A stretch of DNA of 5,256 bases, from contig JAJYAS010000298.1 in assembly GCA_021779415.1 (NCBI GenBank), positions 1 to 5,256 of the forward strand, read 5' to 3'. The position numbers were made by a program, and so were the translations under genes. The first letter of the stretch is position 1. Every line of letters begins with the position of its first letter. A model generated the notes under the pieces. That model saw only the letters and a list, made by a program, of their open reading frames with translations, had not been told where the DNA came from and ran no database searches. This document shows, piece after piece, positions 2,776-5,256 of this stretch. This DNA is from Bacillota bacterium (GTDB taxonomy: Bacteria; Bacillota_B; Desulfitobacteriia; Desulfitobacteriales; Desulfitobacteriaceae).

Positions 2776-2805
2776 AAATAAGCTGAAAATACTAGACGCT
2801 TATTT
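2776..2805. repeat. Perfect 8-bp inverted repeat with 14-nt loop
   Basis: AAATAAGC at 2776-2783 and GCTTATTT at 2798-2805 are exact reverse complements. There is no T-run after it, so it is a poor intrinsic terminator. It may be the 3' stem of the IS110 non-coding RNA or mark an element end. Confidence 0.6.
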
Positions 2806-2844
2806 AGGTGCACCCATGCCCATCCAGTTTAATGCATAAATGAG

Positions 2845-2850
2845 TATAAT
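2845..2850 (+). promoter_or_regulatory. Possible -10 box for the recombinase trio
   Basis: A perfect TATAAT lies about 90 bases upstream of the first trio gene. No good -35 hexamer is found 16-18 bases before it, and the TG two bases before the box does not have exact extended -10 spacing. It is the best promoter candidate in the leader but rests on one hexamer. Confidence 0.3.
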
Positions 2851-2867
2851 ATCCATGTGGCTTGTTT

Positions 2868-2901
2868 TAAGAAATGTGTAATTCTAAGAAAATGCGAGTA
2901 A
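2868..2901. repeat. Pair of imperfect direct repeats upstream of the trio
   Basis: TAAGAAATGTGTAA (2868-2881) and TAAGAAAATGCGAGTAA (2885-2901) begin 17 bases apart. Repeats of this size and position could be binding sites for the recombinases themselves or for a regulator. The match is imperfect and the DNA is A+T-rich, so chance is possible. Confidence 0.35.
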
Positions 2902-2909
2902 ACACGAGA

Positions 2910-2921
2910 AATCTTTAGATT
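2910..2921. repeat. 12-bp palindrome just before the first trio gene
   Basis: AATCTTTAGATT has perfect 5-bp arms around TT. It lies directly in front of the Shine-Dalgarno site, where a bound repressor would block transcription. It may be an operator or part of the recombinase binding region. Confidence 0.4.
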
Positions 2922-2924
2922 ATA

Positions 2925-2932
2925 GAGGGAGG
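2925..2932 (+). promoter_or_regulatory. Shine-Dalgarno site of the first trio gene
   Basis: GAGGGAGG ends 6 nt before the ATG at 2939, supporting that start over the second ATG two codons later. Confidence 0.85.
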
Positions 2933-2938
2933 TAGGTT

Positions 2939-4180
2939 ATGGAAATGAGAAAGCCAATTGAGGTACTAGCCACAGATGTTGTCAAAGAACTCAAGCGACT
3001 CAATTACGCATACAACACCATATGCGGGTTGCGAGCATCGTTCAAGAGAATTTGTGCCTTTGCGCGGGACAAAGGTGAGTTGCACTTCTCTGAAAATCTC
3101 GGTAAGGAGTATCTTAGAGAAAGATATGGATGTACAACGGACTATTATTTGGAACCCTTCCCTAAGAAAGCAAAAGAAGCTATCCGGTCAATCCGACTTC
3201 TGGGAGATTTTCAACTTCATGGCTTTATCATTCGCAGAATCGTAAAGCGAAAGGGATACGTAAAGCCGCCACAGTTCGAGGAAGTTCTGACCGCTTACGA
3301 GAGAGAATGCGCAAACAATGAATACTCTATTCGAGGAATGCGCACCAGACTCCAGCGATTATTCTTTTTTGTCGATTATCTTTCACTGCGGCGCGTGACG
3401 GCTGTAGGCCACATTACGCCTAAAATCATATCGGACTACGTCATAAGCATTTGTCCAAAACACGAAAAGAGTATCGCCTCCATACTGACAACTCTAAGAG
3501 TTTTCTTGAGGTTTCTCTATCTAAACGGGTACACCGATAAAGATTTATCCCTTAGCGTGCCAAAGCAGAACAAATACCATTACCCCACCGTACCATCAAC
3601 TTGGGACCCTTCAGAAGTAAAGCGGATGCTTGATGTCATTGATCGGGGAAATCCTCGCGGAAAGCGAGACTATGCCATCCTTATTCTTGTCGCAAAGCTA
3701 GGAATACGTGTCAGTGACATAAAGGCCTTGAAACTTTCGAATTTGAACTGGGCTAACAAAACGATTACCATTCGGCAGGAAAAAACAAAAAACCAAGTTA
3801 CATATCCAATTCTTCACGATGTAGGTTGGGCACTAATTGATTATCTTCAAAATGCACGACCTAAGTGCGATGTGCCGTATGTGTTTGTACGTCTTAATGC
3901 TCCGTTTCAAGCCTTTGGTGAAAATGCCAACCTCCATAACATAATTACTGAATACATTCGATTGGCTGGAATTAACGTTCCTCGCGGAAAACGGCATGGG
4001 CTTCATTCACTCAGGCACTCGCTGGCTAGCGCCCTTTTGGAACAGGGAGCGTCTCTTGCTGTTATCTCCGATATCTTGGGTCATGTAGATTCAAAATCTA
4101 CTTCGGTTTATCTACATACAGATCTTAATGGGCTAAAGGCCTGTGCGCTTGACCCCGAGGAGGTGTTCCCGAATGCCTGA
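2939..4180 (+). CDS. Tyrosine recombinase, first of the trio (RitA-like)
   Basis: This 413-residue site-specific recombinase would act with the next two proteins to move the RIT element. The C-terminal catalytic domain (about 222-400) has the full active site: R257 in LGIRVSD, the beta-hairpin lysine K282 (QEKTKN), H356 and R359 in HSLRH, H382 in ILGH, and the nucleophile Y391 in STSVYLHTD. A SAM-like core-binding domain lies at about 113-208 (FEEVLTAYERECANN, TRLQRLFFFVDYL, TTLRVFLRFLYLNGY). Unusually, about 110 residues precede it. These (KELKRLNYAYNTICGLRASF, then a RICAFARDKGE helix) have the look of a second, diverged SAM-like domain, making the protein longer than a typical 300-residue integrase. 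The stop overlaps the next gene by 8 nt, so translation is probably coupled. RIT naming follows gene order only; I cannot confirm the clade without alignment. Confidence 0.93.
   Translation: MEMRKPIEVLATDVVKELKRLNYAYNTICGLRASFKRICAFARDKGELHFSENLGKEYLRERYGCTTDYYLEPFPKKAKEAIRSIRLLGDFQLHGFIIRRIVKRKGYVKPPQFEEVLTAYERECANNEYSIRGMRTRLQRLFFFVDYLSLRRVTAVGHITPKIISDYVISICPKHEKSIASILTTLRVFLRFLYLNGYTDKDLSLSVPKQNKYHYPTVPSTWDPSEVKRMLDVIDRGNPRGKRDYAILILVAKLGIRVSDIKALKLSNLNWANKTITIRQEKTKNQVTYPILHDVGWALIDYLQNARPKCDVPYVFVRLNAPFQAFGENANLHNIITEYIRLAGINVPRGKRHGLHSLRHSLASALLEQGASLAVISDILGHVDSKSTSVYLHTDLNGLKACALDPEEVFPNA
4157..4163 (+). promoter_or_regulatory. Shine-Dalgarno site of the second trio gene
   Basis: GAGGAGG lies inside the end of the first trio gene, 9 nt before the ATG at 4173. 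It fixes that ATG as the start rather than the in-frame GTG at 4143, which has no comparable site. Confidence 0.88.
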
Positions 4181-5159
4181 AAACCTAGGGTTTCGGAGCG
4201 TACTAGCCGTGCTAATTAAGAACTATATTGCAGAAAAACAAGCTGTAGGCTACAAATTCGCAAAAGGAGCTGATATGTTAAGGAGTTTCGACTCCTTTGT
4301 GTTCAGTCGAGGCTTGAAAGTGACAGCTTTAACAAAACAAATGGTTATTGAGTGGACCGCTCGCAGGCCGAATGAGACCGTTTCGACACAATGTCGTAGG
4401 ATTTCATTGTTGCGGGGACTGGCGGCATACTTAAATCGTATAGGTTATCCTGCGTATGTTTATCCCAGAGCGATGGTCACCGTGGATCGATACACCTATA
4501 TTCCGTACATATTTTCAAGTGACGAAATGAAAAGGATCTTTGATGTGTGCGACCACTACAGACCGAATGGCGTAACGCCAAATCGACATTTGGTTATGCC
4601 GCTTTTAATCCGCATACTCTATGGATGTGGACTCCGGATTTCCGAGGCAATGAACTTAACTCTCCAGAATGTTGACCTTAACAAAGGCTACTTGTACATC
4701 AAAAATGCAAAGTTCAACAAAGAGCGTATACTGCCAATGGCAGACAGTCTAACGGAACGATGCCGGGAGTACTGGGCAAATGTCAGTATTGGAAAGATAG
4801 GCAATCCGTTTTTCTTCCCGTCGCCATATGGCGGTCATTATTCCGAGTCAACCATTTATAAACTCTTTAGAGCGATACTTAGAATAGCCAAGATTTCACA
4901 CCTGGGGAGGGGAAAAGGCCCCCGAATTCACGATGTCCGGCATACCTTCGCAGTTAATTGCCTAAAGAATTGGGTCCTAGACGGAAGGGATCTTAACAAT
5001 TGTCTTCCCTATCTCTCTTCATATCTTGGCCATGAAGATCTGCGTGGCAGTCAGAGATACTTGCGGCTAACTGCTGAGTTGTACCCAGACATAACAAGCA
5101 AGATCGAGAAGACTTGTTCATACATCATTCCGGAGGTGGAATTGTATGAAGCAGACTGA
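4173..5159 (+). CDS. Tyrosine recombinase, second of the trio (RitB-like)
   Basis: This 328-residue protein has the standard two-domain build of tyrosine recombinases. The N-terminal SAM-like DNA-binding domain (about 8-95) contains LIKNYIAEKQAVGYKF, FDSFVFSRGL and a RISLLRGLAAYLNRIG helix. The catalytic domain (about 115-310) shows R155 in the classic GCGLRISEAMNL box, a beta-hairpin lysine (K180 or K183, in KNAKFNKERILPM), H253 and R256 in RIHDVRHTFA, H287 in YLGH and the nucleophile Y296 in SQRYLRLT. All six catalytic positions are present, so it should be active in strand cleavage. The frame could extend upstream to a GTG at 4143, but the Shine-Dalgarno site favours the ATG. It overlaps the first gene by 8 nt and the third by 14 nt, arguing for a fixed ratio of the three proteins made from one message. 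Confidence 0.94.
   Translation: MPENLGFRSVLAVLIKNYIAEKQAVGYKFAKGADMLRSFDSFVFSRGLKVTALTKQMVIEWTARRPNETVSTQCRRISLLRGLAAYLNRIGYPAYVYPRAMVTVDRYTYIPYIFSSDEMKRIFDVCDHYRPNGVTPNRHLVMPLLIRILYGCGLRISEAMNLTLQNVDLNKGYLYIKNAKFNKERILPMADSLTERCREYWANVSIGKIGNPFFFPSPYGGHYSESTIYKLFRAILRIAKISHLGRGKGPRIHDVRHTFAVNCLKNWVLDGRDLNNCLPYLSSYLGHEDLRGSQRYLRLTAELYPDITSKIEKTCSYIIPEVELYEAD
5132..5136 (+). promoter_or_regulatory. Shine-Dalgarno site of the third trio gene
   Basis: GGAGG lies within the end of the second trio gene, 9 nt before the ATG at 5146. The same motif and spacing as at the previous junction support the start of the truncated third gene. Confidence 0.85.
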
Positions 5160-5256
5160 TTTTGCGAGGACGCTTGCGAGTTATCTGACGGATTTTTTGC
5201 CTGGACAGAGAAATGTAAGCATTAACACGATTAAATCCTATCGCGATACCTTCAAG
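5146..5256 (+). CDS. Tyrosine recombinase, third of the trio (RitC-like), 5' end only
   Basis: Only 37 codons are visible before the window ends. They read as the start of a SAM-like core-binding domain: an FARTLASYLTDFLPGQRNVS helix and turn, followed by an INTIKSYRDTFK segment. The sequence N-T-I-x-S-Y-R-D-T-F is typical of the first DNA-binding helices of tyrosine recombinases, including third genes of recombinase trios. No catalytic residue lies in the visible part, so activity cannot be judged. The start overlaps the preceding gene by 14 nt in a different frame and has a good Shine-Dalgarno site. The frame is open to the last base. Confidence 0.85.
   Translation, partial: MKQTDFARTLASYLTDFLPGQRNVSINTIKSYRDTFK

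Follow-up and report, generated by a model that had tools for sequence, protein, structure and literature searches.

A window of 5,256 nucleotides (the whole stretch of DNA analyzed, G000:C43:23683-28938 in a genome of 2.7 Mb) ends on the right in three consecutive genes for tyrosine recombinases, and the locus raises the question of what kind of mobile DNA these genes belong to and why it should need all three of them. The need for three recombinases is called difficult to understand in the part of a 2012 account of RIT elements that is cited here (PMC3414803). The original prediction, made from the window, took the trio for a RIT element. This identification is supported by sequence comparison, and the ends of the element, compared with those of its relatives, suggest a tentative answer to the second question.

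The recombinase trio and its nested locus

The features on which the argument depends are listed below; coordinates are those of the window, except for those marked L003, which refer to the host contig.

2-691, + strand: 3' part of IS21 istA (Mu-transpos_C_2 match, open reading frame; whole gene at L003 6904-8373)
688-1043, + strand: 5' part of IS21 istB, cut in its Walker A codons (IstB_IS21 match; the 3' part follows the RIT right end in L003)
1038-1124, + strand: left terminal repeat of the RIT, 87 bp, with a perfect inverted copy at L003 13857-13943
1038-1043, + strand: 6-bp core of the left end, TGGCAA (end comparison)
1044-1053, + strand: site M1, TTATCGAAAG (end comparison)
1061-1070, + strand: site M2, TTATGGAAAG (end comparison)
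1115-1124, - strand: site M3, inverted, reading CTTTCCATAA on the + strand (end comparison, repeat alignment)
1162-2931, + strand: IS110-family insertion in the ritA leader, about 1.77 kb (ends estimated against relatives without the insertion)
1274-2557, + strand: IS110-family transposase (NF033542, PF01548/PF02371)
2939-4180, + strand: ritA, tyrosine recombinase of 413 aa (PF00589 match, tree, complete catalytic set)
4173-5159, + strand: ritB, tyrosine recombinase of 328 aa counted from the ATG at 4173 (PF00589, tree, complete catalytic set)
5146-5256, + strand: 5' part of ritC; the gene ends at L003 13853 and encodes 341 aa with a complete catalytic set
L003 13857-13943, 13944-13963, and 13964-13969: right end of the RIT, consisting of repeat, palindrome, and outer core

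The three genes lie on the same strand with overlaps of 8 nt (ritA/ritB, 4173-4180) and 14 nt (ritB/ritC, 5146-5159), at coordinates that agree with those of the original prediction, and the GGAGG-type site that it had placed 6-9 nt before each ATG is found 6, 9, and 9 nt upstream of ritA, ritB, and ritC, respectively. It had also credited the first two products with complete R-K-H-R-H-Y sets, and the residues can be located in both: Arg257, Lys282, His356, Arg359, His382, and Tyr391 in RitA, and Arg155, Lys180, His253, Arg256, His287, and Tyr296 in RitB. The third gene runs past the right edge of the window and was followed in the extended contig, where it occupies L003 12828-13853; the concern that it might lack a catalytic domain is removed by its match to PF00589, a family matched by all three window proteins, and by its complete set (Arg161, Lys186, His263, Arg266, His289, and Tyr298). 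All six residues are found in 69 of 71 RitA, 69 of 71 RitB, and 68 of 71 RitC sequences among the proteins compared; the RitA of one locus, L030, has His at the expected position of the catalytic Tyr. Two consecutive core-binding domains in RitA and an extra C-terminal helix in RitC are given as RIT hallmarks in the cited part of PMC8138268. The structure model of RitA contains two four-helix bundles, residues 7-94 and 114-195 (mean pLDDT 68, pTM 0.42), and that of RitC a helix at 329-338 (mean pLDDT 83 overall, low at this helix); with modest confidence, the models are compatible with the two core-binding domains and the extra helix. The best foldseek matches of the Rit models are to XerA.

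The identification of the trio as a RIT is supported by the order of the genes, the separate grouping of their products, the catalytic third gene, and the flanking inverted repeats. In a FastTree phylogeny of 216 rows, RitA, RitB, and RitC each form one side of a branch, with support of 99, 100, and 99, although it should be noted that long rows make details of this tree unsure and that the outgroups are limited to XerC, XerD, and a further recombinase from the same genome. The three window proteins fall into the separate RitA, RitB, and RitC groups, which occur in that order in the element, and they have the same three nearest relatives (Heliorestis, Aneurinibacillus, and Sulfoacidibacillus); PHROG matches of the Rit proteins are to generic integrase, the tree being built from Rit proteins, XerC, XerD, and the one further recombinase. 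The inverted repeats sought around the trio are present, 87 bp long and perfect, so that the combination that the original prediction had named as contrary evidence, absence of flanking repeats together with clustering in Tn554-like or phage integrase clades, does not arise as it was worded. The adjacent, same-strand genes overlap as in other RITs, by 8 and 14 nt here and by 4-8 bp in the published cases (PMC3414803, in the part cited), and each of the three proteins has the catalytic motif. RITs have a length of about 3.5 kb, terminal inverted repeats, and an overlapping palindrome; the window element measures 5212 bp from M1 to M1, of which IS110-family DNA makes up about 1.77 kb. The signs of mobility are indirect, namely insertions, a near-empty site, and several copies in relatives.

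In one respect the original prediction has to be revised. The element starts at 1038 and not at 2939, because an IS110-family element lies between its left end and ritA; the relatives L040 and L042 are without this insertion. The joined istB flanks give one open frame through GCPG^AGKS, and the istA gene belongs to the IS21 element that hosts the RIT. As the istB flanks are outside the repeats and the IS110-family DNA is inside them, the locus consists of IS110-family DNA in a RIT in an IS21 element. The likely reading is that of a complete RIT, with about 3.4 kb of its own DNA and the 1.77-kb insertion, which entered istB at the Walker A codons; this estimate applies to the whole model, including the circle and the two-core joint considered below. 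The long open reading frames (at least 100 aa) between the RIT ends are those of the rit genes and the IS110 transposase only. A search of the genome found no further copy of window positions 2800-5256, of the 3' half of istB, or of positions 1125-2938, apart from a 37-nt match: the 37 nt before ritA (2896-2932) are 92% identical to G000:C47:8883-8919 (L002 1501-1537), which precedes a 128-aa open reading frame. The sequence GATTATAGAGGGAGG is present three times in the genome, each time just before the start of an open reading frame (one at G000:C14:28108-28122), and the stretch before ritA that contains it could mark where the IS110-family insertion ends on the right, or else be a shared leader. 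The two ends of the window RIT are identical across the whole of M1 to M3, whereas those of L040 and L042 differ between M2 and M3; one end of the window RIT may have been copied onto the other.

Ends, palindrome, and insertion targets

The right repeat of the window RIT leads into a 32-bp perfect palindrome, TTGCCA-TTATGTAAAG|CTTTACATAA-TGGCAA, and from there into istB, whereas the left end has TGGCAA alone, without a palindrome. Two RIT copies in G050, from the same order, are 99.9% alike over 3455 bp and have the palindrome (PAL) on the right in one and on the left in the other. For a wider comparison, a RitC-alignment scan of genome contigs, from which the best 80 of at least 522 relatives were kept, was combined with loci from the order to give 94 loci; 14 of these are without a full trio, and the other 80 contain 86 trios, or 83 after removal of three duplicate records. 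The left end of the window RIT lies beyond the range scanned and was located by an exact string match, and two trios were relabeled by hand (L040 from PAL on the right to neither, L050 from neither to both). The common order at the ends of the 83 trios is target, 6-bp core, M1, 7 bp, M2, and inverted M3 about 72 bp in. The combination of M1 (10 bp), 7-bp spacer, and M2 (10 bp) passes the score threshold at 69 left and 73 right ends; of 142 ends, 127 have an inverted M3 that begins between +71 and +74. PAL, a 20-bp palindrome with a second core, occupies a single end of most readable copies. Among 20-mers that begin exactly 26 bp before M1, palindromy reaches 16/20 or more at 55 of 123 ends; at other offsets this is true of 16 of 13,119 20-mers. 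In the 65 trios with both ends scored, PAL is on the left in 23, the right in 16, both sides in 6, neither in 9, and unreadable in 11. The length from M1 to M1 is 3.43-3.49 kb in most relatives, with exceptions. Trios with PAL at neither end (L040, L044, L046, L118, and L081) or both ends (L050, L073, L108, and L113) were read by eye and have the same target half on both sides, as would follow from rearrangement between copies of opposite orientation; this reading left L048, L054, L105, L106, and L035 unsettled. The geometry PAL-6-M1-7-M2 extends to the RITs of Rhodococcus pseudokoreensis and pHG1, which have about 34% RitA identity; no readable RIT ends were found at the plasmid locus L159.

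A search for PAL scars in 73 genomes of the order gave 19 PAL sites in 13 genomes, and 11 of the 17 sites viewed have an adjoining M1. The other six (L166, L168, L169, L170, L174, and L175) are PAL-like palindromes without a recognizable M1, which may be truncated or divergent RITs or something else. Joining the flanks at these six sites and at four others revealed no clear scar; one of the two joins made for L174 has a spanning frame of 156 codons. Viral contigs searched with two patterns contained no joint of the kind described below and one RIT-type end, PAL-6-M1-7-M2, in L144, an IMG/VR contig classed as viral.

When the flanks of single-PAL elements are joined, an open frame of at least 130 codons spans the junction in 30 of 39, compared with 11 to 16 in the frame-shifted control. 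The motifs at the junctions are PQGG of group II intron reverse transcriptases, the Walker A of IstB, EKGxVEN of IstA, HxLRH of tyrosine recombinases, HNHPSG of RadC, and SGGKDS of a PAPS-reductase-like protein. Pfam searches matched 17 of 20 flank pieces, consistently with these readings (the L032 match being below its cut-off), and gave no match for L098, L114, and one piece of L097. The side of the target on which PAL lies is fixed in 33 of 33 cases over four target motifs, with both orientations of the element found within each. PAL is 5' of the target in all 16 reverse transcriptases (element left in 12, right in 4) and 3' of it in all 8 istB genes (left in 2, right in 6), all 6 istA genes interrupted at EKGxVEN (left in 4, right in 2), and all 3 recombinases (left in 2, right in 1). 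It should be noted that these counts omit L067, whose right end is a joint, and L038, L096, L097, L104, and L111, with single or unclassified motifs, and that the orientation of L058, L066, and L119 was read from their DNA; L038 is an exception, an istA-type gene interrupted at a different motif with PAL 5'. On the RitC tree, the seven target classes of the 52 labeled rows (of 71, with labels partly set by eye) require six changes, the least possible, compared with 26.5 for shuffled labels; istB and istA require two changes each. The comparison suggests that RIT clades mostly keep one target motif each. The RITs of L031 and L074 lie inside RitC-like genes of other trios, at HxxR codons.

The circle model and the need for three recombinases

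The 6-bp cores on the outer and inner side of PAL and that of the opposite end match one another in about 5 of 6 positions, compared with 2 for cores shuffled across all 39 elements. Within target classes, the outer core resembles the inner core in reverse transcriptases, istB, and istA (p < 0.02) and the other-end core in istB and istA (p about 0.01), but these values are overstated by tests that treat related elements as independent; in reverse transcriptases, outer and other-end cores agree no better than shuffled ones (4.53 vs 4.34 of 6 positions, p 0.14) and so do not bear out a strict core homology. All four copies in Neobacillus PS3-12 have GGAGGC as the PAL-side core, whereas the cores of the other end, next to M1, are GGAGGC, GGAGGT, GGTGGA, and GGTGGC, and GGTGGA, the M1-side core of one copy, recurs in another copy between PAL and IRR in the manner of a footprint. 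G033 contains an uninterrupted relative of the target of G050 copy a (flanks 96% identical over 1201 bp and 93% over 346 bp), in which the M1-side core of copy a is present and PAL is absent; one base is missing beside the core, and neighboring bases differ from copy a. The Neobacillus pattern and this near-empty target suggest that it is the target that supplies the M1-side core. For the window RIT, no second istB copy that could represent an empty site was found in its own genome, and the target homologues of L030 carry other cores and decide nothing on an empty site. In the metagenomic contig L067, ritC is followed by a full IRR-core-PAL-core-IRL, and the next 57 of 57 nt are those of the element's own left end; this joint could reflect a tandem copy or an artifact of assembly. 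Viral contigs searched with one pattern did not contain the joint IRR-core-PAL-core-IRL.

These comparisons make it probable that RITs move as circles with an IRR-core-PAL-core-IRL joint, in which the core used sets the orientation of the element. The Rit proteins would excise the element as a circle (a double-strand circle or the result of copy-out) with the joint IRR-M1-core-PAL-core-M1-IRL, and this joint would hold two inverted crossover sites, each with 6 bp between one half-site from M1 and one from PAL. Either core could then integrate into a target with a similar 6-bp motif, the polarity of the core dictating the side of PAL and the choice of core the orientation of the element. The M1-side core would seemingly come from the target and the PAL-side core arrive with the circle, so that 6 bp of an earlier target could travel as a footprint. 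M2 and M3 would bind further protomers.

The two sides of a core tend to fall into unlike sequence classes. Of 53 PALs, 30 have halves that are closer to M2 than to M1, 3 have halves closer to M1, and 20 are tied; the p of 8e-6 overstates the difference, since the count includes related elements and takes in both PALs where an element has two. Since M1 belongs to a different sequence class from M2, M3, and the halves of PAL, a pair of different Rit proteins probably binds each core. The half-sites thus point to unlike proteins to either side of a core, and they make plausible the single hetero-oligomeric complex that the original prediction had inferred from the tight coupling of the three genes. 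The conserved catalytic residues, the common nearest relatives, and the differing half-sites of the cores would all fit such a complex. The fullest form of the model, which is put forward tentatively and has less in its favor than the circle itself, is that the RIT is a site-specific transposon with a palindromic circle joint and two inverted cores of unlike half-sites, two different Rit recombinases acting at each core and the third on M2/M3 or the bare target, and that the members of each clade home to a single catalytic motif, inserting at its codons, for the most part within other mobile elements. If this were true, it would account for the retention of three catalytic recombinases.

Movement by way of the circle could also be catalyzed by one or two Rit proteins, the half-site classes being drift and the third protein regulatory. 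This is unlikely: the 20 of 53 PALs that are equally near to M1 and M2 and the replacement of the catalytic Tyr by His in the L030 RitA are in keeping with it, but the retention of complete catalytic sets in 69, 69, and 68 of 71 RitA, RitB, and RitC proteins speaks against it. Considerably less probable still is the view that PAL lies outside the element, which would have inserted into pre-existing palindromes or have PAL made anew at each insertion, for example by the opening of a hairpin end. Such an origin would suit the presence of PAL at a single end in most readable copies, often as a perfect palindrome, and the fact that the joint is a long inverted repeat in itself. However, the polarity of imperfect PALs with respect to the element is constant in 6 of 6 copies (in G050 and Neobacillus PS3-12), the L067 joint contains PAL and both cores, the near-empty target is without PAL, and the four PAL sites found in Neobacillus PS3-12 all coincide with its four RIT copies. 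Insertion into a ready-made palindrome was judged unlikely on these grounds.

With the circle model, the defined joint, its two cores, the half-site classes, and the single target motif per clade would provide exact substrates for an assay. By targeting the catalytic-motif codons of reverse transcriptases, IS21 genes, and recombinases, RITs would be parasites of mobile elements and would be able to find their target across phyla.

Comparison with known systems

In the XerC/XerD system, dif has two half-sites around a 6-bp center, and the RIT core likewise has two half-sites around 6 bp; when the RitA and RitC profiles are compared with solved structures, the best match in sequence is XerD (1a0p). 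The Rit proteins differ in that they score far below Xer family cut-offs, group apart from the XerC and XerD of the genome, and have a role in a mobile element.

The cited part of PMC10214605 describes SEs and Tn554-related elements as having several recombinase-related proteins and a 6-bp target-derived footprint, as does the window RIT, and likens TnpC of Tn554 to the Srap protein of SEs. Tn554 has TnpA and TnpB recombinases and a non-recombinase TnpC, whereas the ritC product is a catalytic recombinase. SEs and GInts have four conserved genes, including one for a recombinase-like protein without catalytic residues, whereas the window RIT has three catalytic recombinases and, in comparison with SEs, a two-core palindrome. 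Despite the shared recombinase-related proteins and footprints, it is scarcely credible that the locus holds a Tn554-like, SE, or GInt element instead of a RIT, given three catalytic proteins in separate RitA, RitB, and RitC groups (in a tree without Tn554, SE, or GInt proteins) and long open reading frames between the ends that are confined to the rit genes and the IS110 transposase.

The window element is one more RIT, an already known kind of mobile DNA. In the parts of PMC10214605 cited here, no laboratory transposition of RITs is known as of 2023, and their target specificity and empty sites are listed as not tested. The literature searched, to which Ricker et al. 2013 (Plasmid 70:226) and Van Houdt 2009 do not belong, contained no recognized account of a two-core joint, and priority is not claimed. 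The RITs of Cupriavidus metallidurans, pHG1, and others are described, in the part of PMC3414803 cited, as elements of about 3.5 kb with overlapping ritA, ritB, and ritC, whose ends have a 28-9 bp repeat with an overlapping palindrome, vary in sequence, and do not fit the usual core and arm sites. The variation of the ends and the odd palindrome would be accounted for by target-derived cores and a PAL that changes sides. The window element likewise has three overlapping genes, repeats, and a palindrome, and shares its end geometry with the pHG1 and Rhodococcus RITs, but it differs from known RITs in a RitA that is 34% identical to those of the best plasmid RITs, in its IS110-family insertion, and in its site in istB.
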